Source: Natronorubrum daqingense (GTDB taxonomy: Archaea > Halobacteriota > Halobacteria > Halobacteriales > Natrialbaceae). Taken from it: a stretch of DNA of 64,000 nucleotides. The translations under genes were made by a program, and so were the position numbers. This document shows positions 24,808 through 45,628 of the stretch, in pieces; the stretch's first letter is position 1; each line of letters begins with the position of its first letter. The notes under the pieces were generated by a model, which did no database searches, was not told the origin of the DNA, and saw nothing but the letters and a program-made list of their open reading frames with translations. The stretch covers positions 3,100,001 to 3,164,000 of the forward strand of contig NZ_CP019327.1 of NCBI RefSeq assembly GCF_001971705.1, given 5' to 3'.

Positions 24808-27168
24808 TCAGTCCGATGCGGTCCCGGCATCCGATTCCGGTTCGGCGGGTTGGTCGGTGCTGCCGCCACCGCCGCCGAACAGTCTGCCGCCACCGGTGAG
24901 GACGTAGAGGACGGCCAATCCGAGCATGTACGTGAGCGCGATCGGGATCGCGACCAGCAACATCGTGAGGATGCCTTTCGGGCTGAGGAACGCGGCGGCC
25001 GTGAAGATTCCGACGACGATCGGCCGCCAGCGCTCGAGCATCGTCCGGTAGCTGACGATGCCGCCGATGTGGAACAGCGCCATCGTGACGATGATGTTGA
25101 ACAGGAAGCCGACGCCGAGGGTCGTGTAGATCACGAGCCACGAGAAGCTGTTGATCCGGTAGGTGACCTCCATGCCGTTTTGGACGGCGTCGGTGATGAG
25201 ATACGAAATCACCGCGGGGGCGAGCCAGTAGAAGCCGATGAACAGGCCGACCCCGAAGCCGGCGAACAGCGTACCACCCCAGACGAGGAACACGCGCTGT
25301 GTCCCGCCGCTGACGAGGCCACGCTCCTTGGCTGCTGGCCAGCCCCAGTACATGACCATCGGCAGGATGGCGATAATCGCGAGGATCGTACTCACCTTCA
25401 CCATGAAGATGAGCACTTCGACGGGGTGTAACGCGATGACCAGCCCGAGGTCGCCGATCAGCTCCGTCGTCGACTCGTCGCCGGTGACGTTCGCGTCGTT
25501 GCTCTCTGCGACCTCGAGGAGGACCTCTTCGGGGACGCGTTCGACGAATTGTGCGAGGATCACGCCGAAGCCACCCTGATAGAGCGCGAGGAACGTGCCA
25601 CCGAGGACGGCCATGAAGACGCCGACGATGTAGATCGTCTTCGAGGTCAGGCTGTCCACGATGAACGCGAGGTCGTAGGCGTAGCCGCCGATGTCGTCCT
25701 CGGTCGTCTCGTCTTCGGTGAACGGATCGAGCATCCCTGCAGCGGTGCTCGAGAACACACTCTCTTCGTCCTCGCCACCGCTTTCGGCTGCACCCGCGCT
25801 CGCCCCGCTGGCTGCGGCCCCACCACCGCTCCCGTCGCCCGCTTCGTTCGCCCTGGCTCGCTGTTCTTGTAGCGAGTCGAAGCGATCGAGGATGGCCTGA
25901 GCCTTGTCCCGATTATCGTCGTACATGGCCTGCCGGGAGTGCTCGAGGGCCTGTTCTTCGTCCATCGCGAGGAAGACCTGCGTCGGAATCTCTTCGATGT
26001 CGTCGGTCGAAATGGTGTCGAAGTCGATGTCGTCGGGGTCCTCTGCGGCTCTGATGTCGCCTTCTCGCGGGTACACCGGTGCCTGAAGCACGCGGATCGT
26101 GTACACCATGAGCCCGACCACGGCGAGCGTGAGTGCGACGACCACGCCGGCGGCGACGTCACCGAAGACGCCGTACTCGGCGGCGAACGCCTCGAGTCCG
26201 AGCGTTCCCTCGGGCCGGTAGCCCTCGGGGAACGCGGGGTAGACGGACTCCTCGAGGTAGTCGAATCCACCGTCTGAGATGAAGACGAAGACTGCAGCGC
26301 TCACGAGTATGAGTGCGCCGACGAACTGGTACAGCCGCCGTTTCATGAGGCCGGTGCCGGTGTCGAGTTCGGCGGCACCACGTCGGCGGATGTTCGCGAC
26401 GATTTTCGCGAGACCGAGGCTGAACACGTAGAGGGCGACGAGCGGGATCGCCCACATGATCAGCGTGAACGGGTCGGGCGGGGAGAACATTGCGCCGAAG
26501 ACGGTAATCGCGACGATGGCGTGGCGCCACTTGTCCCGGAACGTCTCGTAGGAGACGATTTCGGTGTACGAAAGGACGCTCATCAACAGCGGCAACTGTG
26601 CGGCGAGTCCGAACGAGATGGTGAGCAGGGCGATGAACTCGGTGAACTCGGTGATCCCCCAGCTCGGATTGACGCCAGCGTCGTGTGCGACGGTGCCGAG
26701 GAAGTCGAACGCGAACGGGAAGAAGATGGCGTAGGCGTAGAAGATCCCGATACAAAACAACACCATCGAGGTCAGCGCGAAGCCGGCCATGTACCCGCGA
26801 GAGACCGGGACGACCGACTCGACGCCGCGCTCTCTGAGCGCCTCGCGGGAGAAGTAAAGCAGGGCCGGAATCGCGACGATGATCCCGACGAGTAACCCGA
26901 TTTTCGCCTGTAACAGGATCACTTCGAAGGGCGTTCGGGTAATAATCTCCGTCGCGTCGGCGACGGTCTGGCCCATCTCGGCTTTCGCCGTCGCCTCGAG
27001 GAAGTCCCAGATCCAGACGCGAAGGGCGTAGAACGAACCGACGAAGCCGAGGGTAAAGACGATGAACACCTTCTGCAGATGGGTCTGCGCGCCAGACAAT
27101 ACCGCTCCGATCGTCTCCCGGCCGGTATTGATCGCTTTGGCCGTATCCTCACCGACGGCAGAACTCAT
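24808..27168 (-). CDS. tatCt: Twin-arginine translocase TatCt, two fused TatC domains
   Basis: 786 residues. Two TatC-like domains, about 20-300 and 490-760, are joined by a hydrophilic linker near 380-480 that is rich in Gly/Ala/Ser and acidic residues. Each half has about six helices, plus extra hydrophobic helices around residues 290 and 350. The tandem form is known in haloarchaea as TatCt, essential in Haloferax volcanii. It recognises twin-arginine signals and exports folded proteins. A TATA-like GTTGATAAC lies about 30 bases before ATG 27168. The single-domain tatCo gene is divergent from it. Confidence 0.92.
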   Translation of the reverse strand: MSSAVGEDTAKAINTGRETIGAVLSGAQTHLQKVFIVFTLGFVGSFYALRVWIWDFLEATAKAEMGQTVADATEIITRTPFEVILLQAKIGLLVGIIVAIPALLYFSREALRERGVESVVPVSRGYMAGFALTSMVLFCIGIFYAYAIFFPFAFDFLGTVAHDAGVNPSWGITEFTEFIALLTISFGLAAQLPLLMSVLSYTEIVSYETFRDKWRHAIVAITVFGAMFSPPDPFTLIMWAIPLVALYVFSLGLAKIVANIRRRGAAELDTGTGLMKRRLYQFVGALILVSAAVFVFISDGGFDYLEESVYPAFPEGYRPEGTLGLEAFAAEYGVFGDVAAGVVVALTLAVVGLMVYTIRVLQAPVYPREGDIRAAEDPDDIDFDTISTDDIEEIPTQVFLAMDEEQALEHSRQAMYDDNRDKAQAILDRFDSLQEQRARANEAGDGSGGGAAASGASAGAAESGGEDEESVFSSTAAGMLDPFTEDETTEDDIGGYAYDLAFIVDSLTSKTIYIVGVFMAVLGGTFLALYQGGFGVILAQFVERVPEEVLLEVAESNDANVTGDESTTELIGDLGLVIALHPVEVLIFMVKVSTILAIIAILPMVMYWGWPAAKERGLVSGGTQRVFLVWGGTLFAGFGVGLFIGFYWLAPAVISYLITDAVQNGMEVTYRINSFSWLVIYTTLGVGFLFNIIVTMALFHIGGIVSYRTMLERWRPIVVGIFTAAAFLSPKGILTMLLVAIPIALTYMLGLAVLYVLTGGGRLFGGGGGSTDQPAEPESDAGTASD

Positions 27169-27310
27169 TTACTGCCTGTGGCTAACTGACATCCAGTTAT
27201 CAACCTTTCGAGTGCTCGAGCGTCAACGAGCGGTTTCGGACCCTTGTCGCTCTCTTCGAATGGCCGTAAGAAAAAGGCCTATAACCAGTGGCCGTTTGAT
27301 ATCCCGATAG
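27169..27310. promoter_or_regulatory. Divergent tatCt/tatCo promoter region
   Basis: 142 bases between the two start codons. On the plus strand CCTATAACC (about 27277-27285) lies 30 bases before the tatCo ATG. On the minus strand GTTGATAACTGG (about 27192-27203) lies some 27-33 bases before the tatCt ATG. Both imply leaderless transcripts from one shared region. Confidence 0.55.
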
Positions 27311-28432
27311 ATGTCGGACGAGCCGGCGGACGACATGGCTGTCGATGATCCCGCTAGCGACGCCGAGGGGTCGACGGAGACCGACGACGAGCCGCTGCCA
27401 TCCGAGATGGACGGCGAGGAGGACCCGTCCGCCGACGAAGATGCCGAACGGTCAACCGAATCCGACGCTGCGTCCGATGGTGAAGCAGATGACGATTCTG
27501 GCGCTGAAGCCGACAACGCCGAGGCTGACGACGAATCTGACGACGAGGCAGACGGCGCCGAAACTGACGACAACGCGGACGATGCTGAAGGCGACGACGC
27601 GGACCAATCGATCGAAACCGACGGCGAGGGGTACGTCCAGGACCGACCCGACAGCGCCGGGGAACCGGTTGACCCCCTCTCCGACGACGTCGGCGGCATT
27701 TCGACGCCGCCGGACGACGAGGAGATGCCCCTCGCCGACCACATCGAGGAGATGGTCCTTCGATTCGCGGTCGTCATACTCGTCGGTGCGGCCGGGACCG
27801 CGATCGGCTTGCTCTTCGCCTCACAGGGCATCAGCTACGTCTGGGACGACATTTTCCCCGGCGCAGCGGAAAACGCGCCCCCACCACACATTTACCACCC
27901 ACTCGAGCTGTGGTTGACCCGGATCAAGTTCTCGGCCCTGCTCGGAATCATGATGGCGCTGCCGGTGTTCGTCTACCAGTGTTACCGGTTCATGCGACCG
28001 GGACTCTACCCCAACGAGCGCAAGTACTACCTCGCGGCGGTGCCGATGAGCGTCGTCCTCGCCGCCCTCGGGATGTTGTTTTCCTACGTGCTCGTCTTGC
28101 CGATCCTCTTCGAGTACTTCACGTTCTACGCGGAGGGGAGTGCGGACATTGCGTACGCCCTCGGCGAGACCTTCGACCTCGTCATCACGCTGACCGGCTT
28201 CCTCGCGATCGTCTTCCAGATTCCGCTGTTCATCATGCTCGCGATCATGATGGGCGTGACGACCCGGCGGTGGCTGGCCGACAAGCGCCTGTATTTCTGG
28301 GCGGCCTTCTTCGGCCTCTCGTTCATGTTCACCATGGACCCGACGATGATGGCCCCCATCCTGGTCGCTATCACGATGATCATGCTCTTTGAGGGCACGT
28401 TGCTCGTCCTCAAGTGGGTCGGGAAAGAGTAA
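27311..28432 (+). CDS. tatCo: Twin-arginine translocase TatCo, single TatC with acidic extension
   Basis: 373 residues. Residues 1-140 are extremely acidic and low-complexity (Asp/Glu/Ala repeats). The TatC domain follows with six helices: PLADHIEEMVLRF is the N-terminal cytoplasmic segment and YQCYRFMRPGLYPNERKYY is the first cytoplasmic loop, whose Glu (LYxxER) contacts the twin-arginine signal in bacterial TatC. It is the haloarchaeal TatCo. The extension is far longer than in bacterial TatC. Many exported proteins in this window (2391, 16878, 35052, 62883) carry Tat signals. Confidence 0.92.
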   Translation: MSDEPADDMAVDDPASDAEGSTETDDEPLPSEMDGEEDPSADEDAERSTESDAASDGEADDDSGAEADNAEADDESDDEADGAETDDNADDAEGDDADQSIETDGEGYVQDRPDSAGEPVDPLSDDVGGISTPPDDEEMPLADHIEEMVLRFAVVILVGAAGTAIGLLFASQGISYVWDDIFPGAAENAPPPHIYHPLELWLTRIKFSALLGIMMALPVFVYQCYRFMRPGLYPNERKYYLAAVPMSVVLAALGMLFSYVLVLPILFEYFTFYAEGSADIAYALGETFDLVITLTGFLAIVFQIPLFIMLAIMMGVTTRRWLADKRLYFWAAFFGLSFMFTMDPTMMAPILVAITMIMLFEGTLLVLKWVGKE

Positions 28433-28604
28433 GCCCGTCCACACCGTTGTTCTTCAACTCGATCGTTCGCCCGCTCGAGTGGGGTGAATTCCGTGGATGG
28501 TCGTACAGAAACCCGCCGGTACTCGAGCGATTCGGTCCTTATATTCTCCCTATCCATCGGTAGATTACTGGATCGGCGACTTCTTCAGTCAAAAAGTAGG
28601 ATAT

Positions 28605-28624
28605 TGTAAACGATCACGGTTTAG
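28605..28624 (+). promoter_or_regulatory. Nitrate-cluster upstream element, copy 1 (short form)
   Basis: TGTAAACGATCACGGTTTAG, sharing its first 13 bases with the longer elements before the transporter and nirA genes. The two half-sites TGTAAAC and GTTTAG are seven bases apart here instead of 15. About 120 bases before the nasA start. Confidence 0.5.
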
Positions 28625-28689
28625 TAGCTTCATACGTTTTCTATCGTCGTGAAATAGTCTATGAGTTTGAGTGAAATGGCGTTCGATTG

Positions 28690-28708
28690 GTGTGTTTGTA
28701 AACCACAC
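28690..28708 (+). promoter_or_regulatory. Inverted repeat containing TTTGTAAAC, close to nasA
   Basis: An imperfect inverted repeat, arms GTGTGTTT and AAACCACAC with one bulged base, centred on TTTGTAAAC, the same half-site as in the shared element. It sits 35-55 bases before the nasA start and could be the operator proper. Confidence 0.4.
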
Positions 28709-28743
28709 ACTCGTCGTGGCGACGCCGACTCGAGGTGGCGTGT

Positions 28744-30879
28744 GTGACGGAACTCGTACCGACGACCTGCATGCGATGTGCCGTCGGCTGCGGACACGTC
28801 CACCGGCCCGTCGAACAGGGGTACGGCCTCGACGTCGTTCGTGGCGACGCCGCCCATCCAGTCAACAACGGACTCGCCTGCCAGCGCGGGATCAGCGAGT
28901 CCGTCGACCCCGGCGACAAGTGGCTCACCCGCCCGCTCGTCCGACGAGACGGTGAACTGGTGGCGACGACCTGGGAGACGGCCCTCGAGCGCGCGGCGGA
29001 AGGCCTCGATACGGCACTCGAGGACGGCCCCGATAGCGTCGCCGTGTTGGGAAGCGGCCAGCAGACCAACGAGGCGGCCTACGCCCTCGGGAAGCTCGCT
29101 CGCGGCGGATTCGGAACCAGCTACTACGACGCCAACACGACGCTGTGTATGGCCTCGGCGGTCACCGCCTACTACGACGCATTCGGCAGCGACGCCCCGC
29201 CGCCGACGTACGACGACATTCCCGAGGCCGAGACCCACCTCGTCTGGGGGGCCAACCCCGCTGCGGCCCACCCGGTCATGTTTCGGTGGATCAATCAGTC
29301 CGCGGACGCCGCAGACTCCGAACTGATCGTCGTCGACCCCATCGAGAGCGAGACCGTCGAGGTCGCGGACTATCACGTGCCACTCGAGCCCGGCGGCGAC
29401 GTCGACCTCGCGCGGGCGATTCTCGCTCGAGCCGTCGAAACCGACCGCGTCGACGAGGAGTTCGTCGCCGACGCGACCGACGGATTCGACGAACTCTGCG
29501 ACCAGCTTCCGGACGCCGCCGACGCGGCCGAGGCCGCCGGCGTCACCCTCGAGATGGTCGACCGAATCGCAACGGCACTCGAGTCGCCGACGCTGCTCTA
29601 CTGGGGGATGGGGATCAATCAGAGTGTCAACGGAACCGCCGCTTCGGGCGCGTTGATCGATCTCTGTCTGGCGACGGGCAACCTCCGTCCCGGTTCGGGG
29701 CCGTTCTCGCTGACCGGCCAGGCGAACTCGATGGGGACGCGCGTCTGTTCCTCGAAGGGGACCTGGCCGGGCCACCGCCCCTTCGGCGACGCCGAGCACC
29801 GCAACGCGGTCGCCGAGGCGTGGGACGTTCCCGAATCGAGACTTCCCGCCGATCCCGGCCCCGGTCCCGTCGGTATCGTCGATGCGATCGGCGAGGACGT
29901 CTCCGCCGTCTACGCGGTTGCGACCAACCCGCTCGCGGGGATGCCGGATACGACGCACGTCCGCGAGCAACTCGAGGACGCGTTTCTCGTCGTCCAGGAC
30001 GCGTTCCGCAGCGAGACGGTCGAACTCGCCGACGTCGTCCTCCCGGCGGCGACGTGGGGCGAATCGTCGGGCACGACGACCAACATGGAGCGCACCGTCT
30101 CGCGCGTCCGCGCGGCGACGGAGACGCCCGCCGGCGTCAGAACCGACCTCGAGTTGATCGGCGACCTCGCGGACCGACTGGTCCCCTCCCTCTTCGAGGA
30201 GTCCCTCGAGCCCGAATCGGTCTTCGCGGAACTGGCTGCCCTGACGGAAGGGACGCCCGCCGACCTCTCGGGGATCAGCTACGAGCGTCTCGATCACGAG
30301 GTTGCGGTTCGATGGCCGGCACCCGAACCCGACGTCTCGGCGGGGTACCGCTACTACGACGGTCCGGCGAGAGACGACGACGAGCGAAAGACGACCGGCG
30401 AAGAGCGGGCGGAGTCGTGGTCGTTTCCGACGCCGACCGGTCGCGCGCAGTTCTCGACGGGGACGACACAGCCCCTCCCCGAGCCCACAGACGAGACCTA
30501 TCCGCTCACTTTGACGACGGCTCGGCGACCGGACGCGTACAACACGGGCGTGCGAGCCCGCGAAGACGAGCCGACGGCCCGCGTCAGCCCCGCGACGGCC
30601 GTCGCCCTCGCCGACGAACTCGAGTCTGGCGAGTCGGAGGGCGATGGCGGATACGGCCGCGTCGTCTCCCGGCGCGGATCGATCACCGTTCGCGTCGAAC
30701 CCGACGAGTCGATCCCCGACGGCGTCGTCTGGCTGCCGATCCACCAGCCCGCGGTGAACGAACTCACCGTCTCTGCCGTCGACCCGCGCTCGAAGGAACC
30801 GAACTTCAAGCAGTGTGCCGTCCGTCTCGAGCGCCCGCGAGATCGTCCGACGAGCGCCCTCGCCGACGCGAGCGCGTGA
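28744..30879 (+). CDS. nasA: Assimilatory nitrate reductase, molybdopterin catalytic subunit
   Basis: 711 residues from GTG 28744 (another GTG lies 9 bases upstream). The N-terminal 4Fe-4S site is TTCMRCAVGC with the fourth Cys in LACQRG. The Mo-ligand Cys is in ANTTLCMASAVTAYY, the arrangement of Nas/Nap-type reductases. Further MGD-binding segments are GANPAAAHPV, GQANSMGTRV and the C-terminal NELTVSAVDPRSKEPNFK. It has no Tat signal, so it works in the cytoplasm with ferredoxin as likely electron donor, reducing nitrate to nitrite. First gene of the nitrate cluster. Confidence 0.92.
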   Translation: MTELVPTTCMRCAVGCGHVHRPVEQGYGLDVVRGDAAHPVNNGLACQRGISESVDPGDKWLTRPLVRRDGELVATTWETALERAAEGLDTALEDGPDSVAVLGSGQQTNEAAYALGKLARGGFGTSYYDANTTLCMASAVTAYYDAFGSDAPPPTYDDIPEAETHLVWGANPAAAHPVMFRWINQSADAADSELIVVDPIESETVEVADYHVPLEPGGDVDLARAILARAVETDRVDEEFVADATDGFDELCDQLPDAADAAEAAGVTLEMVDRIATALESPTLLYWGMGINQSVNGTAASGALIDLCLATGNLRPGSGPFSLTGQANSMGTRVCSSKGTWPGHRPFGDAEHRNAVAEAWDVPESRLPADPGPGPVGIVDAIGEDVSAVYAVATNPLAGMPDTTHVREQLEDAFLVVQDAFRSETVELADVVLPAATWGESSGTTTNMERTVSRVRAATETPAGVRTDLELIGDLADRLVPSLFEESLEPESVFAELAALTEGTPADLSGISYERLDHEVAVRWPAPEPDVSAGYRYYDGPARDDDERKTTGEERAESWSFPTPTGRAQFSTGTTQPLPEPTDETYPLTLTTARRPDAYNTGVRAREDEPTARVSPATAVALADELESGESEGDGGYGRVVSRRGSITVRVEPDESIPDGVVWLPIHQPAVNELTVSAVDPRSKEPNFKQCAVRLERPRDRPTSALADASA

Positions 30880-31111
30880 AGGCGAGCGCTGTGTCCCTCC
30901 GTCTAGCGAGCGCGCGTCGACGACGACCGCCGCCCGCCGACCTCGAGCCGACGTTTCGATCCGCGTTCGTGTGATTTGGTCACGGATCGCACCGTTTCTG
31001 GTTTCCGTTCGTCAAACAATGGGCGGTTTCGCTCGCACCATCGTCCTAATATTGGCTATATCTGATTTGATATCCGATTTCCTCCACCAAATCTCTAAAC
31101 ATTCGGCCATC

Positions 31112-31147
31112 TGTAAACGATCACTGTTATGTGGTTTAGAAACGTGG
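31112..31147 (+). promoter_or_regulatory. Nitrate-cluster upstream element, copy 2
   Basis: A 36-base element with half-sites TGTAAAC and GTTTAGA separated by 15 bases that contain a TATA-like TGTTATGTG. About 30 of 36 positions equal those of copy 3. It lies some 190 bases before the transporter start, so the mRNA would have a long leader. The rest of the 457-base gap 30880-31336 shows an AT-rich zone at 31010-31110 and no gene; a MVWIVHSR-stop mini frame begins near 31193. Confidence 0.6.
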
Positions 31148-31336
31148 CCGTGTAATGTGAATTGAAGCGTGTTTGGAGGAAAAATAACGGCCGATGGTTT
31201 GGATCGTTCACTCGAGGTGAGTCGCCGTGACGCGTAGGTACTGGCCGACGCGGTGCGTGAAATCGGCCGGAAGCGGTCGAGGTACAGCTGGGAATCCGAA
31301 TCGAACCGTCGTTTGGACGACTGTCCAGGTGAGGCG

Positions 31337-32665
31337 ATGACCGGAGCCGACGCCGCCCCAATCCGCGGCAATCAACACCGAGCGCTCTCGATTCTGACGA
31401 TCGGGTATTTCGTCGGCTTCGCCGGTGTCGTCGTCTACGGCCCCGTCGCGACCGAGTTCGAAGACGTGCTGGGGCTCTCCGGCGTGTTGCTCGGATTATT
31501 GGTCGCGGCCCCGCAGTTGACGGGGTCGCTGTTGCGCATTCCCTTCAGCGCGTGGGCCGACAGCGCCGGTGCCAAGAAACCCTTCGCCATCCTGCTCGGC
31601 CTGTCGGCGCTCGGCATGGGCGGCCTGTTGACGATCCTGATCACGACCTATCCCGACGGATTGTCGATGGTCCATTACCCCCTCATCTTCGTCTTCGGCG
31701 CGCTCAGCGGCTGCGGGATCGCGGCCTTTTCCGTCGGAATCACCGACATCACCTACTGGTACCGCGCGAACCGCCGGGGAACGATGCTCGCACTCTTCGC
31801 CGGACTCGGGACGACCTCGCCCGGCCTGTTCACGATCGTCTCGCCCATCGCGCTCGGTGCCGTGGGCCTGACGGGGACGTACGCCGCCTGGTTCGTCTTC
31901 CTCCTCGTCGGTACCGTCGTCTTCGTGATGTTCGCCGTCGATTCGCCGTACTTCCAGTATCGAAAGCGCGGCCTCGAGGAGTCCGAGGCGAAAGCGAAGG
32001 CAGCGGATGCCGGCCAGGAGTTGTTCCCCAGTGGTGACGCGATGCAGTCGATCCGAACGGCGGCGACGATCCCGCGCTCGTGGATGCTCACGGCGATGTT
32101 CTTCGTCTCCTTCGGGGGCTACCTCGCGCTAACCACCTGGTATCCCTCCTACTGGCACAATCTCCACGGACTGGACATCCAGACCGCAGGGATCGTCACG
32201 GCCCTGACGTTCACGCTCCTCTCGGCGCTCTTTCGCGCCGCGGGTGGCGCAGTCAGCGACCGCTTCGGCGGCGAAGTAACGACGATCTCGAGTTTCGTCG
32301 TCGTCGTGGTCTCGACGCTCGCACTCGTGTTCACGCACGACCTTTACGTCGCACTCGTCGCCACGGTGACGCTCGGTGCCGGATTGGGGGTCGCGAGCGC
32401 GGCGATCTACCAGCTCCTGCCGCGATACGTTCCCGACGCTGTCGGCGGTGCGTCGGGTCTCGTCGGCGGACTCGGTGGTTTCGGCGGGTTCGTCGTGCCG
32501 CCGATTCTCGGTCTGTTCGTCGATTTGCAGGGTGTAAGCGGCTACGCGACCGGGTTCGTCGTCTACCTCGTTGTCGGACTCCTCGCACTCGCCATCGCCG
32601 TCTCCCTCTATCGAGACCAGCCAGCACCGACGACACCGTCCGTTCCGGCCCCCGCGGACGACTGA
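31337..32665 (+). CDS. nasB: NarK-type MFS nitrate/nitrite transporter
   Basis: 442 residues, 12 membrane helices of the major facilitator superfamily. The helix-5 nitrate signature is seen as RGTMLALFAGLGTTSPG and the helix-11 signature as SGLVGGLGGFGGFVVPPILG. Takes up nitrate into the cytoplasm for NasA. In Haloferax mediterranei the equivalent gene nasB lies with nasA, and the order here is the same, but a separate shared element precedes it. Starts at ATG 31337; a GTG frame extends 28 codons further upstream into hydrophilic sequence and is less likely. Confidence 0.9.
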   Translation: MTGADAAPIRGNQHRALSILTIGYFVGFAGVVVYGPVATEFEDVLGLSGVLLGLLVAAPQLTGSLLRIPFSAWADSAGAKKPFAILLGLSALGMGGLLTILITTYPDGLSMVHYPLIFVFGALSGCGIAAFSVGITDITYWYRANRRGTMLALFAGLGTTSPGLFTIVSPIALGAVGLTGTYAAWFVFLLVGTVVFVMFAVDSPYFQYRKRGLEESEAKAKAADAGQELFPSGDAMQSIRTAATIPRSWMLTAMFFVSFGGYLALTTWYPSYWHNLHGLDIQTAGIVTALTFTLLSALFRAAGGAVSDRFGGEVTTISSFVVVVVSTLALVFTHDLYVALVATVTLGAGLGVASAAIYQLLPRYVPDAVGGASGLVGGLGGFGGFVVPPILGLFVDLQGVSGYATGFVVYLVVGLLALAIAVSLYRDQPAPTTPSVPAPADD

Positions 32666-32820
32666 CGCCGCGGCGTCGCTGCGCTCGTTTTCTCGAGTCG
32701 CGTCCGGCCCTCACATCTTCAACTAGCGCCGACGATCGCTTCCGATTCACATCCTAATACAGTCAATATTCGATTGTAGATACTCCGTTCGACGACTAAC
32801 AATACTAAAAATTAGTTATT

Positions 32821-32856
32821 TGTAAACGATTACTATTATAGGGTTTAGAGACGTGG
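32821..32856 (+). promoter_or_regulatory. Nitrate-cluster upstream element, copy 3, with TATA box
   Basis: Same 36-base element as copy 2: TGTAAAC, a TATA-like ACTATTATAGG, then GTTTAGA and ACGTGG. With the TATA centre near 32837, transcription should begin near 32862, just before a small frame that overlaps the nirA start. Confidence 0.65.
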
Positions 32857-32865
32857 GTTTGAAAC

Positions 32866-32946
32866 ATGAATTCCGAAACAACTGAGAGGGAAACGCTGCG
32901 TATGGAGTCGGAATGTGGTTTCGAGGTGGTCGTCGATGGTCCATAA
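32866..32946 (+). CDS. Possible 26-residue leader peptide before nirA
   Basis: ATG 32866 would be the first start codon on the mRNA, four or so bases from the predicted transcript end, and the frame (MNSETTERETLRMESECG to VVVDGP) stops at 32946, ten bases inside nirA in another frame. The position suits leaderless translation followed by re-initiation at nirA. It may also be chance. Confidence 0.3.
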   Translation: MNSETTERETLRMESECGFEVVVDGP

Positions 32947-34699
32947 GAAAGAAGACCAGAAAGACGACTGCTACGGCGACGAGGTTCGCGAACACATTCT
33001 CGAGTTCGCGGAAAACGGTGGCTACGAGGCCATTCCGGAAGACGAACGCGAGACGTGGTTCACCCGGTTCAAATTCTGGGGGCTCTTCCACCAGCGCAGC
33101 GGACAGGAGTCGTACTTCATGATGCGACTGACGAACGCCAGCGGTATCTTGGAACCGGGACAACTCCGAGCCATCGGCGAAGTCGCCGGCGAGTACGCGA
33201 CCGGTCCCGTCGAAAACCCCGAGTTCGGAAACGGCTGGATCGATCTCACGACCCGACAGTCCGTCCAACTGCACTGGCTCAAACTCGAGGACGTGCCGGA
33301 AATCTGGGAGCAACTCGAGGCCGAGGGCGTCCACTCCCGGTCGGCGGGCGGCGATACGATGCGGAACATTTCGGGTTCCGCCCTCCACGGCAAGGTCGAG
33401 GAGTACGTCGACTCCGGCCCGCTACTCGAGCGCTTCGAGGAGGAACTTCGCGGTGACGACGCGCTCGCGAACATGCCCCGGAAGTTCAACATCAGCGTGA
33501 CCGGGACGAAATCCGGCTGTGCGCAGGATTCGCTCAACGATATCGGCTTCGAGCCGGCCAGAAAGGAGATCGGGGGCGAGACGGTCAAGGGATTCAACGT
33601 GCGCATCGGCGGCGGCCTCGGCGGCCGACAGCCCCGTGCTGCGACGCCACTCGACGTCTTCGTTCGACCCGAAAACGCCTACGAGGTCGGCCGCGGATTC
33701 GTCCAACTCTACCACGACTACGGCGGTCGACAGAACCGTTCGAAGAATCGGACTCGCTTTTTCGCCGACGACTGGGGAATGGAGAAGATTCGCGAGACGC
33801 TCCAAGAAGAGTACGTCGACTTCGAGATGCACCGTGCGGGCGAGGACTTCCGCGAGGAGTACACCTACAACGCCGGTTCGACGACCGAAGGTAAACACGA
33901 CCACGTCGGCGTCTACGAGCAGAAACAGGACGGCCTCAACTACGTCGGGCTGAGCGTTCCCATCGGTCGCCTGCCCGCCGAGGACGCCGTCGCCCTCGCC
34001 GACCTCGCCGACGAGTACGGCTCCGGCGAACTCCGTCTCACCCGCCGCCAGAACCCGGTCATCGTCGACGTGCACGACGACGACCTCGAGTCCCTGCTCG
34101 CGGATCCGCTCCTCGCTTCGTACCCGCCCGAACCGAGCCCCTTCGAGCGCGGGGCGATGGCCTGTACGGGCACCGAGTTCTGTTCGATCGCGCTCACGGA
34201 AACGAAGGGTCGGATGGCGCGAATGCTGCGCTGGCTCAACGCGAACGTCGACCTGCCCGAGGACGTCGGCAAGATCAAGATGCACTACTCCGGGTGTACC
34301 GCCGACTGCGGACAGGCGATGACGGCCGATATCGGCCTCCAGGGAATGCGCGCCCGGAAGGACGGCCAGATGGTCGAGGCATTCGACATCGGCGTTGGCG
34401 GCGGCGTTGGCGAGAACCCGTCGTTCGTCGAGTGGATCCAACAGCGCGTTCCGGCGGACGAAGCACCCGGCGCGATCCGCAATCTGTTGGAGGCGTTTGC
34501 AGCCCACAGAAGTGATGGACAGACGTTCCGCCAGTGGGTCGAGTCGGTCGGCACCGAGGCGCTCGTCGAGTTCTGCGAACCCGAAGAGACCGACTTCGAG
34601 GCACCGTACATGGCCGACGCGAAGCAATCCTGGTACCCCTTCGCGGAGGAACCGTCGGCGAGCGCGGCTGAAGGGTCGGTCGCTCCGTCCGACGACTGA
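32936..34699 (+). CDS. nirA: Ferredoxin-nitrite reductase (siroheme, 4Fe-4S)
   Basis: 587 residues, the two-repeat nitrite/sulfite reductase fold. The four Cys that bind the 4Fe-4S cluster bridged to siroheme are in ACTGTEFCSIALTETK and YSGCTADCGQ (near residues 400-465). Repeats GNGWIDLTTRQSVQLHWL and SGELRLTRRQNPVIVDV carry siroheme-contacting Arg residues. It reduces nitrite to ammonium with six electrons from ferredoxin; haloarchaeal name nasD. ATG 32936 begins MVHKKEDQKDDCYGDEVRE. HemL and HemB for the tetrapyrrole are encoded downstream in the window. Confidence 0.9.
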   Translation: MVHKKEDQKDDCYGDEVREHILEFAENGGYEAIPEDERETWFTRFKFWGLFHQRSGQESYFMMRLTNASGILEPGQLRAIGEVAGEYATGPVENPEFGNGWIDLTTRQSVQLHWLKLEDVPEIWEQLEAEGVHSRSAGGDTMRNISGSALHGKVEEYVDSGPLLERFEEELRGDDALANMPRKFNISVTGTKSGCAQDSLNDIGFEPARKEIGGETVKGFNVRIGGGLGGRQPRAATPLDVFVRPENAYEVGRGFVQLYHDYGGRQNRSKNRTRFFADDWGMEKIRETLQEEYVDFEMHRAGEDFREEYTYNAGSTTEGKHDHVGVYEQKQDGLNYVGLSVPIGRLPAEDAVALADLADEYGSGELRLTRRQNPVIVDVHDDDLESLLADPLLASYPPEPSPFERGAMACTGTEFCSIALTETKGRMARMLRWLNANVDLPEDVGKIKMHYSGCTADCGQAMTADIGLQGMRARKDGQMVEAFDIGVGGGVGENPSFVEWIQQRVPADEAPGAIRNLLEAFAAHRSDGQTFRQWVESVGTEALVEFCEPEETDFEAPYMADAKQSWYPFAEEPSASAAEGSVAPSDD

Positions 34700-43406: not shown

Positions 43407-45218
43407 TTAGACGGCGTCCTGTCCGCTGTTTCCGGTCCGAACCTGGTAGGCGCCCTCGACGGGGATGACGAAAATTTTCCCGTCGCCGGGCTCGCCGGTG
43501 TTCGCGGCGTCCGCGATGGCGTCGACGACGTCGCCGGCCGGAATGTCCGCGACGACGCACTCGATTTTGACCTTCTGGTGGAGGTCGACCGTGTACTCCT
43601 CGCCGCGCCACTGGCCCTTCTTGGCGGGCTGAGAGCCGCGCCCGGAGACGTTCGTGACCGTGAGCGACGGTGCGCCGATTTCGGCGAGGCCCTTCTTGAC
43701 CGCACCGAGGCGATCCGGACGGATGATCGCGGTGACCAGTTTGAGTTCGCCGTCGTTGGGTTCGCCACCGTCAGAGCGAAGCTCTGACGAGGATTGGTTC
43801 TCTTCGTTCACCTCACCACCGTCCGTGCGGATGACCTTGTCATCGGTGTAGCCGCCGTCGGTCGCGACGTCTGGCCCACCGAATTCTGGGTAGGTGTCGA
43901 CGCCGTGCTCGGCGAGGTCGAGGCCGTCGCGTTCGTGGTCGGGCGTGACTCGAGCTTCACCGATGGCCTTGAAGGCGCCCCAGACGACTGCAGTTGCCAC
44001 AACCGTCCAGATCGTAATGACCGCAACGCCGATGATCTGTGGTGCGAACGCACTCGCTTCGATCGAGAGAATGCCGCCGGAGATGACGCCGCCACCGATG
44101 GCGCTTCCCTCGAGCGACCAGAGTGGGTAGAGTATCAGTCCGAGCATCCCTGCAGTCCCGTGGACCGGGAACACTGCACAGACGTCGTCGATCTTGAGTT
44201 TCTCGTCGACGAGTTTGAAGACGATCGGGAGCTGTGCGCCGGCGATAAATCCGATCGCGATCGCACCCATCGGGGTGATGAGGTCCGTCGGACCCGTGAC
44301 GCCGACGAGGCCGGCGAGCATGCCGTTGGCGACGTAAAGCGTATCGACCTTCCCGTTCAGTGCCAGCGAAACGCTCGAGGCACCGAGTGCACCGAGTCCC
44401 ATCCCGAGGGCGGTGACGATCGCGACACTGCCGACGTATCCGAAGTCACCGAGCTCGAGGACCCCATCGGCGGCCGATTCGGGATTAAACACCGTCGCGG
44501 CCGTCCCGACGTTGAAGCCGAACCAGCCGAAACAGAGGATCAGCGTCCCCAGCACGGCAAACGTCAGCGAGTGACCGGGGATAATGTTGACGCTGCCGTC
44601 GTCGTTGTACTTGTCCATGCGAGCGCCGAGAATCCAGGCTGCGGTCAGCCCGGCGACGCCGCCGACGCCGTGGACGACCATCCCTCCCGCGAAGTCGGCG
44701 AAGCCGAGATCGGCGAGGATCGGCGCGTCGGCGCCCGGTGCGTACCAAACCATCGCGGCGACGACCGGGTAGATGACTGCGGCGAGCAGGAACGTGTACG
44801 TGACGTAGGCGCGCAATTTCGCGCGGCCCGCCACTGCACCAGACACGATCGTCGCGGCGGTCATCGCGAACACCGCGCTAAACAGGATTTCGGCCATGTC
44901 GTAGCCGCCATCGACGCCGAACTGCGTCAGCGCGCTGGAACCGCTGCCACCGCCGAGTATCGTCCCGACGTTGTTCGAAATGCCCATTCCGATCGCGAAG
45001 AACACGAGAATTCCGACCGCCCAAGTTAGCATGTTCTTCGTCAACTGGTTCGCGACGTTCTTCGAGCGGACCTGTCCCGCCTCGAGCATCGCGAATCCGG
45101 CGTGCATGAAGAAGATCAGGAACGTCGCGGCGAGCATCCACACGAGGTTGACCCCCGTCGCGAGCGACTCGACCTCTTCGGCACTAATTTCGAGGAGCAC
45201 GGGATCGATCATGCCCAT
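43407..45218 (-). CDS. amt: Ammonium transporter fused to P-II regulator (Amt-GlnK)
   Basis: 603 residues. Residues about 15-430 are an Amt channel of 11 helices, with [34 protein letters not shown] (first pore His) and [11 protein letters not shown] (second pore His). A 60-residue acidic linker leads to a complete P-II domain at 490-603: [20 protein letters not shown] at its start, a T-loop with [11 protein letters not shown] that keeps the Tyr51 position while Tyr46 is Trp, and [20 protein letters not shown] for ATP binding. P-II normally blocks Amt when bound; here it is tethered. Confidence 0.93.
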
Positions 45219-45628
45219 CCCTCCACTGATCCGTCGGAACTATCTGCGTATTGTGGTTGTTTGTCCACCGTTTCTCCAACTTGGTCCATAGATGTGTTCC
45301 AAATCACGTCTGAGTGGGATGGACCAGTCACATATAACGATTAGCGTTGATGTTTGGATGATAAAACGGGTGTACTAGGCACGAACGTAAAAATCTAGAT
45401 TGACTATTATGTGTATAAGGGTACGGGCGATGGAACGTGACCGAGTCGTCCGCGAGAGATGTGTGCTTTCTCAATCCCGACGAGACCGTTTTCGTTCCTG
45501 AACGCGTCAAAAATCACCGCTCCACCGTCACTTTGTGGATCCGTCCCGTCGCGCGCGGCAGATGTTGCCTCGCTCACGGCAGAGTCGACCGCTGGTGGAC
45601 GTTCGTCCGAAACACCCCGTCTGTGGAC
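45219..45628. other. 410-base gap upstream of the Amt-GlnK gene
   Basis: Holds the amt promoter on the minus strand. TATA-like candidates are CGTTATATGTG near 45330 (about 110 bases before the start) and ACAATACGC near 45247 (about 30 before). An AT-rich block covers 45340-45420. The copies of the nitrate-cluster element seen upstream of nasA, its transporter and nirA are not found here. No gene recognised. Confidence 0.45.

Follow-up and report, generated by a model that had tools for sequence, protein, structure and literature searches.

Known systems and the nas locus of Natronorubrum daqingense

In Haloferax mediterranei, transcripts of the nas genes and of amtB-glnK are low with ammonium and high on nitrate or under starvation (PMC8143581, PMC3831643). 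The literature calls the mechanism of haloarchaeal ammonium repression of nitrate assimilation and ammonium uptake unknown, with NtrC and sigma-54 absent (PMC3831643, PMC6801745, PMC8143581). We analysed 64,000 nucleotides of Natronorubrum daqingense (contig NZ_CP019327.1, positions 3,100,001 to 3,164,000; "the window", in whose numbering all positions are given). The window encodes an assimilatory nitrate reductase (nasA), a NarK-family transporter (narK), a nitrite reductase (nirA) and an ammonium transporter with a PII domain (amt-glnK). We consider it probable that these genes form a nitrogen-limitation regulon, with two-box promoters and a relay through upstream open reading frames (uORFs) in the leaders. 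Genes and signal are those of the nasABC and amtB-glnK systems of Hfx. mediterranei, where palindromic promoter sequences were noted; unlike here, the accessible text of the papers concerned mentions neither an element common to nas and amt nor a distal box, a fixed spacing or a uORF (PMC8143581, PMC2483277, PMC3831643). The boxes may have been described before, as most subscription papers were outside our literature search.

The NrpR regulon of methanogens is likewise an archaeal nitrogen regulon that includes ammonium transport and assimilation, and the NrpR operator reads GGAA-N6-TTCC. There is no such operator in the window, and an NrpR regulon was rejected; the boxes described here look activator-type. 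The haloarchaeal activators Bat and GvpE have an upstream activating sequence directly upstream of the transcription factor B recognition element (BRE) and the TATA box. The module in the window differs from it in sequence and in having a second box 68 bp further upstream. In Haloferax volcanii, the nitrogen-shift motif AAAGACTAART lies upstream of 492 genes including amt1 and amt2, and an Lrp-type regulator was proposed; NrpR is reported not to be conserved in haloarchaea (PMC6801745). AAAGACTAART is also a proposed cis motif at nitrogen genes, but it has a different sequence and a single site type. With two mismatches allowed it has six matches in the window against 5.4 expected, none of them at a module promoter, and we rejected it as the element at this chance level.

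A proximal box directly upstream of the TATA box

As the original prediction had it, the narK (31112-31147) and nirA (32821-32856) promoters have a 36-base element in common; the two copies are identical at 31 of 36 positions. With up to three mismatches allowed, the element has no third copy in the 3.84-Mb N. daqingense genome, the whole of which was covered by the pattern searches. The conserved unit within it is TGTAAACGATYAC, which is found exactly at 28605 (nasA), 31112 (narK) and 32821 (nirA) and ends 2 bp before the TATA box. We refer to this unit as the proximal box. A 20-base form, TGTAAACGATYACYGTTWTA, allowing up to three mismatches, matched the genome three times, at the nasA, narK and nirA promoters, and its reversed-pattern control did not match at all. 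Across 81 genomes of the family Natrialbaceae there were 54 matches to this form compared with 7 for the control, and 24 of the 29 matches that were fetched stand before nirA or a NarK-type gene. Counts across genomes come from related sequences and are therefore not independent. Unrelated promoters were rarely matched, and the shared element is real and far above chance. Further exact matches to TGTAAACGAT in the genome, two inside 16S rRNA genes and one before an alcohol-dehydrogenase-like gene, were rejected as regulon members.

The element had been read as two half-sites, TGTAAAC and GTTTAGA, flanking the TATA box. Its left part is strongly conserved: in the upstream regions of 38 nirA genes of Natrialbaceae, A5, A6, T17, A18 and T19 never vary and most of positions 1-12 hardly do. 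The right part is not, as GTTTAGA occurs exactly at the right-hand position in 6/38 nirA promoters and in none of the 34 nasA promoters of the family set. The "shorter form" claimed for nasA also dissolves, because its GTTTAG shares the register of the nirA GTTATA and is the nasA TATA-like box. The TGTAAAC/GTTTAGA pair was consequently rejected as a regulatory unit, since its right half is not conserved. A nitrate-specific regulator that binds both half-sites and blocks or recruits the TATA-binding protein (TBP) would fit the narK and nirA copies, which contain both sequences, and part of the nirA promoters have GTTTAG-like bases. Against these stand the right-hand counts, the register of the nasA GTTTAG, the presence of the module at amt and the conservation of a distal box at fixed spacing instead, and we regard such a regulator as most improbable. 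As GTAAACGATTAC is nearly palindromic (GTAA-WCGW-TTAC), a single dimeric site just upstream of the TATA box would explain the element more simply than a half-site on either side of that box. Outside the family, the core reads AACGATTA[CG]NNTTWTA and is present at nirA and at some nasA genes of other families.

A distal box at fixed spacing

Aligning the promoters on the proximal box uncovered a distal box, CCTWATA-N6-MTATYY (of the type CCTTATA-N6-ATAT..), at nasA, narK and nirA (Table 1). The degenerate pattern built from these three distal boxes, CCTWATANNNNNNMTATYY, has no other match in the genome. Of the 74 family promoters, 65 have a CCTNAWA-type sequence between -67 and -69; among 25 nirA promoters from outside the family, 14 have one between -66 and -68. 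The module thus holds a fixed position relative to the TATA box and the start, and a fixed distance between its boxes, as a regulon module does. A proximal box directly before the TATA box with a distal box 67-68 bp further upstream is the better-supported geometry.

The "very different surroundings" claimed for the narK and nirA copies were not borne out. Their upstream regions (31043-31240 and 32751-32935) align over about 195 bp, transcribed leader included, and are thus duplicates. Since the narK leader of Natronorubrum texcoconense (L013) retains a relic of the nirA start region, the narK promoter and leader are the duplicate of those of nirA. In five relatives (L009, L017, L018, L022 and L025), narK comes immediately after nasA and lacks a separate module. 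This duplication, together with a proximal box that abuts the TATA box where the BRE lies, would suit the view that the shared sequence is an unusually strong BRE/TATA core promoter or a recent duplication and no regulatory site at all. A core promoter should recur at many genes, whereas the genome-wide pattern matches are at nas only. The nasA and amt upstreams are not alignable duplicates, yet they have both boxes at the same spacing, and the module is kept across several haloarchaeal families. We therefore consider this explanation very unlikely.

The module extends to amt-glnK

A matrix trained on the nas promoters of other species, with the window excluded, found a fourth copy blind, 12 kb away and at 44 bits, in the promoter of amt-glnK. 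Both boxes are present, 68 bp apart. The four window sites score 68, 60, 60 and 44 bits compared with 20.6 bits for the next best match in 864 kb of the organism's own DNA. Pattern searches miss diverged members, the amt-glnK site itself among them. The gene encodes an ammonium transporter with a P-II (GlnK) domain fused to its C terminus (PF00909, 6.6e-99; PF00543, 2.1e-25); in plasmid records of Natrinema and Haladaptatus, amt and glnK are separate overlapping genes.

In 0.79 Mb comprising the window and 39 haloarchaeal nas regions, all matches above 20 bits precede nasA, nirA, a NarK-type transporter gene or amt. We also searched 243 genomes of the order for both boxes with 62-68 bp between their cores. 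The 35 matches comprise 24 at nasA or nirA, 4 at amt and 7 that are chance-like, and the control gave 6. The four matches at amt, each in another genome, all precede an ammonium transporter gene (one representative matches TIGR00836 amt, E 3.6e-97, just below the cut-off) and are the only convincing non-nas matches across the order. The two-box module was also seen before separate NarK-type transporter genes in other haloarchaea (L036:1174, L036:7157, L033:5919).

The same element thus stands at physiologically linked promoters and is rare elsewhere, as in a regulon with one cis module. The original prediction of a nitrate-assimilation regulon holds in that the shared element marks nitrogen genes, and needs widening in that it is not nitrate-specific: amt-glnK in the window and amt in four other genomes carry the module, which makes this a nitrogen-assimilation regulon. 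Judged by promoter comparison, the putative regulon is one of nitrate reduction and transport, nitrite reduction and ammonium uptake with PII. The joint expression of nas and amtB-glnK in Hfx. mediterranei agrees with this scope.

uORFs that overlap the gene starts

In H. volcanii, overlapping or nearly adjacent gene pairs showed strict translational coupling in nine of nine cases, and Shine-Dalgarno (SD) motifs in 5'-untranslated regions (5'-UTRs) did not support de novo initiation (PMC6728339). The leaders of the regulon described here resemble these termination-reinitiation pairs in their ATGA, GTGA or TGATG overlaps and in the SD motif before the downstream start, and strict dependence would be expected. 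Unlike those pairs, the upstream frame is a uORF of 25-36 codons, mostly at the predicted 5' end of the mRNA; transcript starts are predicted throughout.

The nirA leaders are the most informative. Counting from the first base of the proximal box, 36/38 family promoters have a GTG or ATG at a distance of exactly 45 nt. This codon, about 27 nt from the centre of the TATA box, stands where transcription is expected to start. The frame it opens runs to a stop that overlaps the nirA start and is open in 34/38 promoters, compared with 2/38 and 13/38 for the other frames. It has no in-frame stops, against 10-13 expected per length class in column shuffles (p 0.004, 0.03 and 0.004). The distance from box to gene is 115, 118 or 121 in 34/38, and of the 15 spacing changes on the NirA tree, 11 involve a multiple of three nucleotides. 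The peptide itself is not conserved: codon positions 1, 2 and 3 are equally variable, amino-acid similarity is not above that of column shuffles, and we rejected a conserved small protein on these grounds.

Comparable frames precede the other genes. In the window, all four promoters have a start codon 45 nt (nasA, 44 nt) after the first base of the proximal box, at the predicted transcript start. Five amt promoters were found to bear the module, by matrix or by pattern, and each has a GTG at +45; the frames opened there are 29-36 codons long and overlap the amt start codon with their stops (ATGA, TGATG or GTGA). In nasA, the frame that ends at the overlapping TGA is open over its last 81 nt in 32/34 promoters, and the uORF starts either at a GTG (+44/45) or, as is often the case, at an ATG some 12 nt beyond it. 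At narK, the gene is reached through a chain of two short uORFs. SD-like GAGG motifs precede the starts of nasA, nirA and amt. Across the order, an overlapping uORF is found at 62/83 nirA and 73/81 nasA genes, compared with 16 and 24 expected from dinucleotide shuffles; within the same genome, 20-22% of other long ORFs have one. The nirA and amt uORFs are 25-36 codons long, and their stops overlap the gene start codons. Stop and start thus overlap as in coupled pairs, and at nirA the upstream frame is kept open by selection. Because frame, 3n spacing and overlap are conserved and the peptide is not, the pattern points to translation of nasA, nirA and amt by termination-reinitiation after the uORF.

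The uORFs could be due to chance, with the GTG at the start site being an initiator-type DNA motif in an incidentally open frame. CGTGA is a recurrent sequence at the predicted start, also in promoters whose GTG frame closes at once, such as those of nasA and narK in the window. This view is unlikely in light of the nirA reading frame (34/38 open against 2/38 and 13/38), the depletion of stops, the 3n spacing and the frames of 29-36 codons that all five module-bearing amt promoters keep up to the amt start.

The leader might instead act as an attenuator, in which a uORF peptide or an RNA structure senses nitrogen and stalls ribosomes or ends transcription. The leaders, which are predicted to be transcribed, are conserved; many nasA leaders contain a C-x-C-K motif and a palindrome, and CDC or DCK occurs in two amt leaders. 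Amino-acid-level selection is missing from the nirA uORF, and many nasA leaders, like nirA, lack the C-x-C-K motif. The leader RNA gave no fold signal (z -0.8, -0.2 and 1.1) and no Rfam match, and a structured leader RNA or riboswitch was rejected. With neither a conserved peptide at nirA nor a fold signal, attenuation is distinctly unlikely.

The further inverted repeat reported near nasA, TTTGTAAAC (28690-28710), is present. It does not lie at the promoter, being about 40 nt downstream of the predicted nasA transcript start, inside the leader uORF. It is conserved as GTGTGATTGTAAATCACAC in many Natrialbaceae. The palindrome may have a role as DNA or RNA, given that its codons are uncommon in genomes of this kind, but L006, L008, L016 and L023 do without it and it is thus not required. 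As read in the window and in L009, L011, L017 and L022, GTGTGATTGTAAATCACAC encodes C-D-C-K-[SP]-H. TTGTAAA is kept in part of the family, and the amt leader of L240 contains GATTGTAAAC again.

Proposed mechanism and candidate regulator

The distal box, the uORFs and the amt-glnK member are additions to the original prediction. The boxes, their spacing and the conservation of the uORF frame come from comparing promoters; we infer the regulator, the direction of control, the transcript start and reinitiation. Under ammonium scarcity, one or two nitrogen-responsive DNA-binding proteins would bind both boxes and recruit TBP and transcription factor B. The mRNA would start on or just before the uORF start codon, which would make translation of the uORF leaderless, and ribosomes finishing the uORF would re-initiate on nasA, nirA or amt. 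Re-initiation is proposed because SD sites in haloarchaeal 5'-UTRs do not work de novo; with SD-like GAGG motifs and an overlapping uORF at all three genes, it would be the natural route.

A position directly upstream of the BRE and TATA box may suit recruitment at least as well as blocking, and the boxes look like activator sites. In Hfx. mediterranei, a 5-bp change in "region 2" of the nasABC promoter abolished expression on nitrate and was read there as the loss of an activator site (PMC8143581). This result favours activation over repression. Our attempt to place the change (TAGAT) on the module failed: in 392 genomes the published primer gave a single match, an unrelated one with three mismatches, and the plasmid-borne reductase gene of Hfx. 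mediterranei is a different paralogue that lacks the box.

No gene for a transcription factor is conserved beside nas, where the conserved neighbours are only TatC and nas genes, and a regulator gene at this position was rejected. The regulator gene would thus be unlinked. In Hfx. mediterranei, a pull-down with the nasABC promoter recovered an Lrp/AsnC protein whose gene lies beside glnA (PMC8143581). Genes for lrp adjoin amt-glnK in Natrinema salinisoli and lie near nirA in Haladaptatus. The pull-down and these neighbours make an Lrp/AsnC protein a candidate, not a result.

Several points weigh against a regulon of this kind. The plasmid-borne amt paralogues that we examined have no box and were rejected as further members. 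Many nasA promoters outside Natrialbaceae lack a recognisable module, in part because nasA sits inside an operon there. The matrix scan covered 864 kb, about 23% of the organism's genome. The evidence for binding and expression is from published work on relatives, and the transcript start is predicted. As for the relay, the GTG at +45 might serve as an initiator motif in the DNA, and the nirA peptide is under no purifying selection, so that its translation is deduced from frame conservation only. In the window, the codon at the predicted start meets an early stop at nasA (GTG AAA TAG) and narK (GTG AAT TGA), and their uORFs must therefore begin further in.

The nitrogen-limitation regulon remains the reading that we favour. 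Its short bipartite element, with a fixed geometry at nas and amt promoters of several families, offers a bait for the regulator and a defined set of mutations. Short uORFs that merely deliver ribosomes are known (PMC12548453); here all the genes found in one regulon share this solution, and it suggests how genes with long leaders get translated although haloarchaeal SD sites fail de novo. More tentatively, and with considerable doubt, we suggest a two-level cassette in which the two-box promoter is joined to an obligatory leaderless uORF relay, such that NasA, NirA and Amt synthesis would depend on leaderless initiation. If so, control of leaderless translation would adjust the entire nitrogen regulon in a single step.

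Features of the locus

Table 1. Promoter boxes, leader uORFs and genes of the putative regulon in the window
Feature	Position	Strand	Evidence
nasA distal box CCTTATATTCTCCCTATCC, 68 bp before proximal box	28537..28555	+	pattern, 3 matches in genome
nasA proximal box TGTAAACGATCAC, then TATA-like GTTTAGT	28605..28625	+	
nasA leader uORF, MSLSEMAFDWCVCKPHTRRGDADSRWRV then stop; TGA overlaps nasA GTG	28661..28747	+	
Palindrome GTGTGTTTGTAAACCACACAC inside nasA uORF	28690..28710	+	
nasA, assimilatory nitrate reductase	28744..30879	+	NF041323, above cut-off
narK distal box, 67 bp before proximal box	31045..31063	+	
narK proximal box and TATA, first part of 36-base element	31112..31131	+	
narK leader uORF 1, VFGGKITADGLDRSLEVSRRDA then stop; duplicate of nirA uORF	31169..31237	+	
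narK leader uORF 2, overlaps uORF 1 and narK ATG (ATGA)	31227..31340	+	
NarK-family nitrate/nitrite major facilitator superfamily transporter	31337..32665	+	family match below curated cut-off
nirA distal box, 68 bp before proximal box	32753..32771	+	
nirA proximal box TGTAAACGATTAC and TATA (TTATA)	32821..32840	+	
nirA uORF, MNSETTERETLRMESECGFEVVVDGP then stop; predicted leaderless, starts 45 nt after proximal-box start, stop overlaps nirA start	32866..32946	+	
nirA, ferredoxin-nitrite reductase type	32936..34699	+	best family match below cut-off
amt-glnK distal box CCTTATACACATAATAGTC, 68 bp before proximal box	45402..45420	-	
amt-glnK proximal box and TATA CATCAACGCTAATCGTTATA	45333..45352	-	
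amt-glnK uORF (32 protein letters), predicted leaderless, TGA overlaps amt ATG	45209..45307	-	
amt-glnK fusion gene	43407..45212	-	PF00909, PF00543

Between the TATA box and the predicted start (32845-32855 and the corresponding positions in relatives), nirA promoters also conserve A....C[AG]TG. Counted from the start of the box, A27, C32, T34 and G35 are kept in 36, 36, 38 and 37 of 38 nirA promoters, respectively. The nasA promoters have another conserved stretch in this interval, GCATAYGTT. Upstream of nasA (24808-28432) lie a duplicated-domain TatC gene on the minus strand and a second TatC gene on the plus strand, and both are kept beside nasA in 22-24 nas loci.

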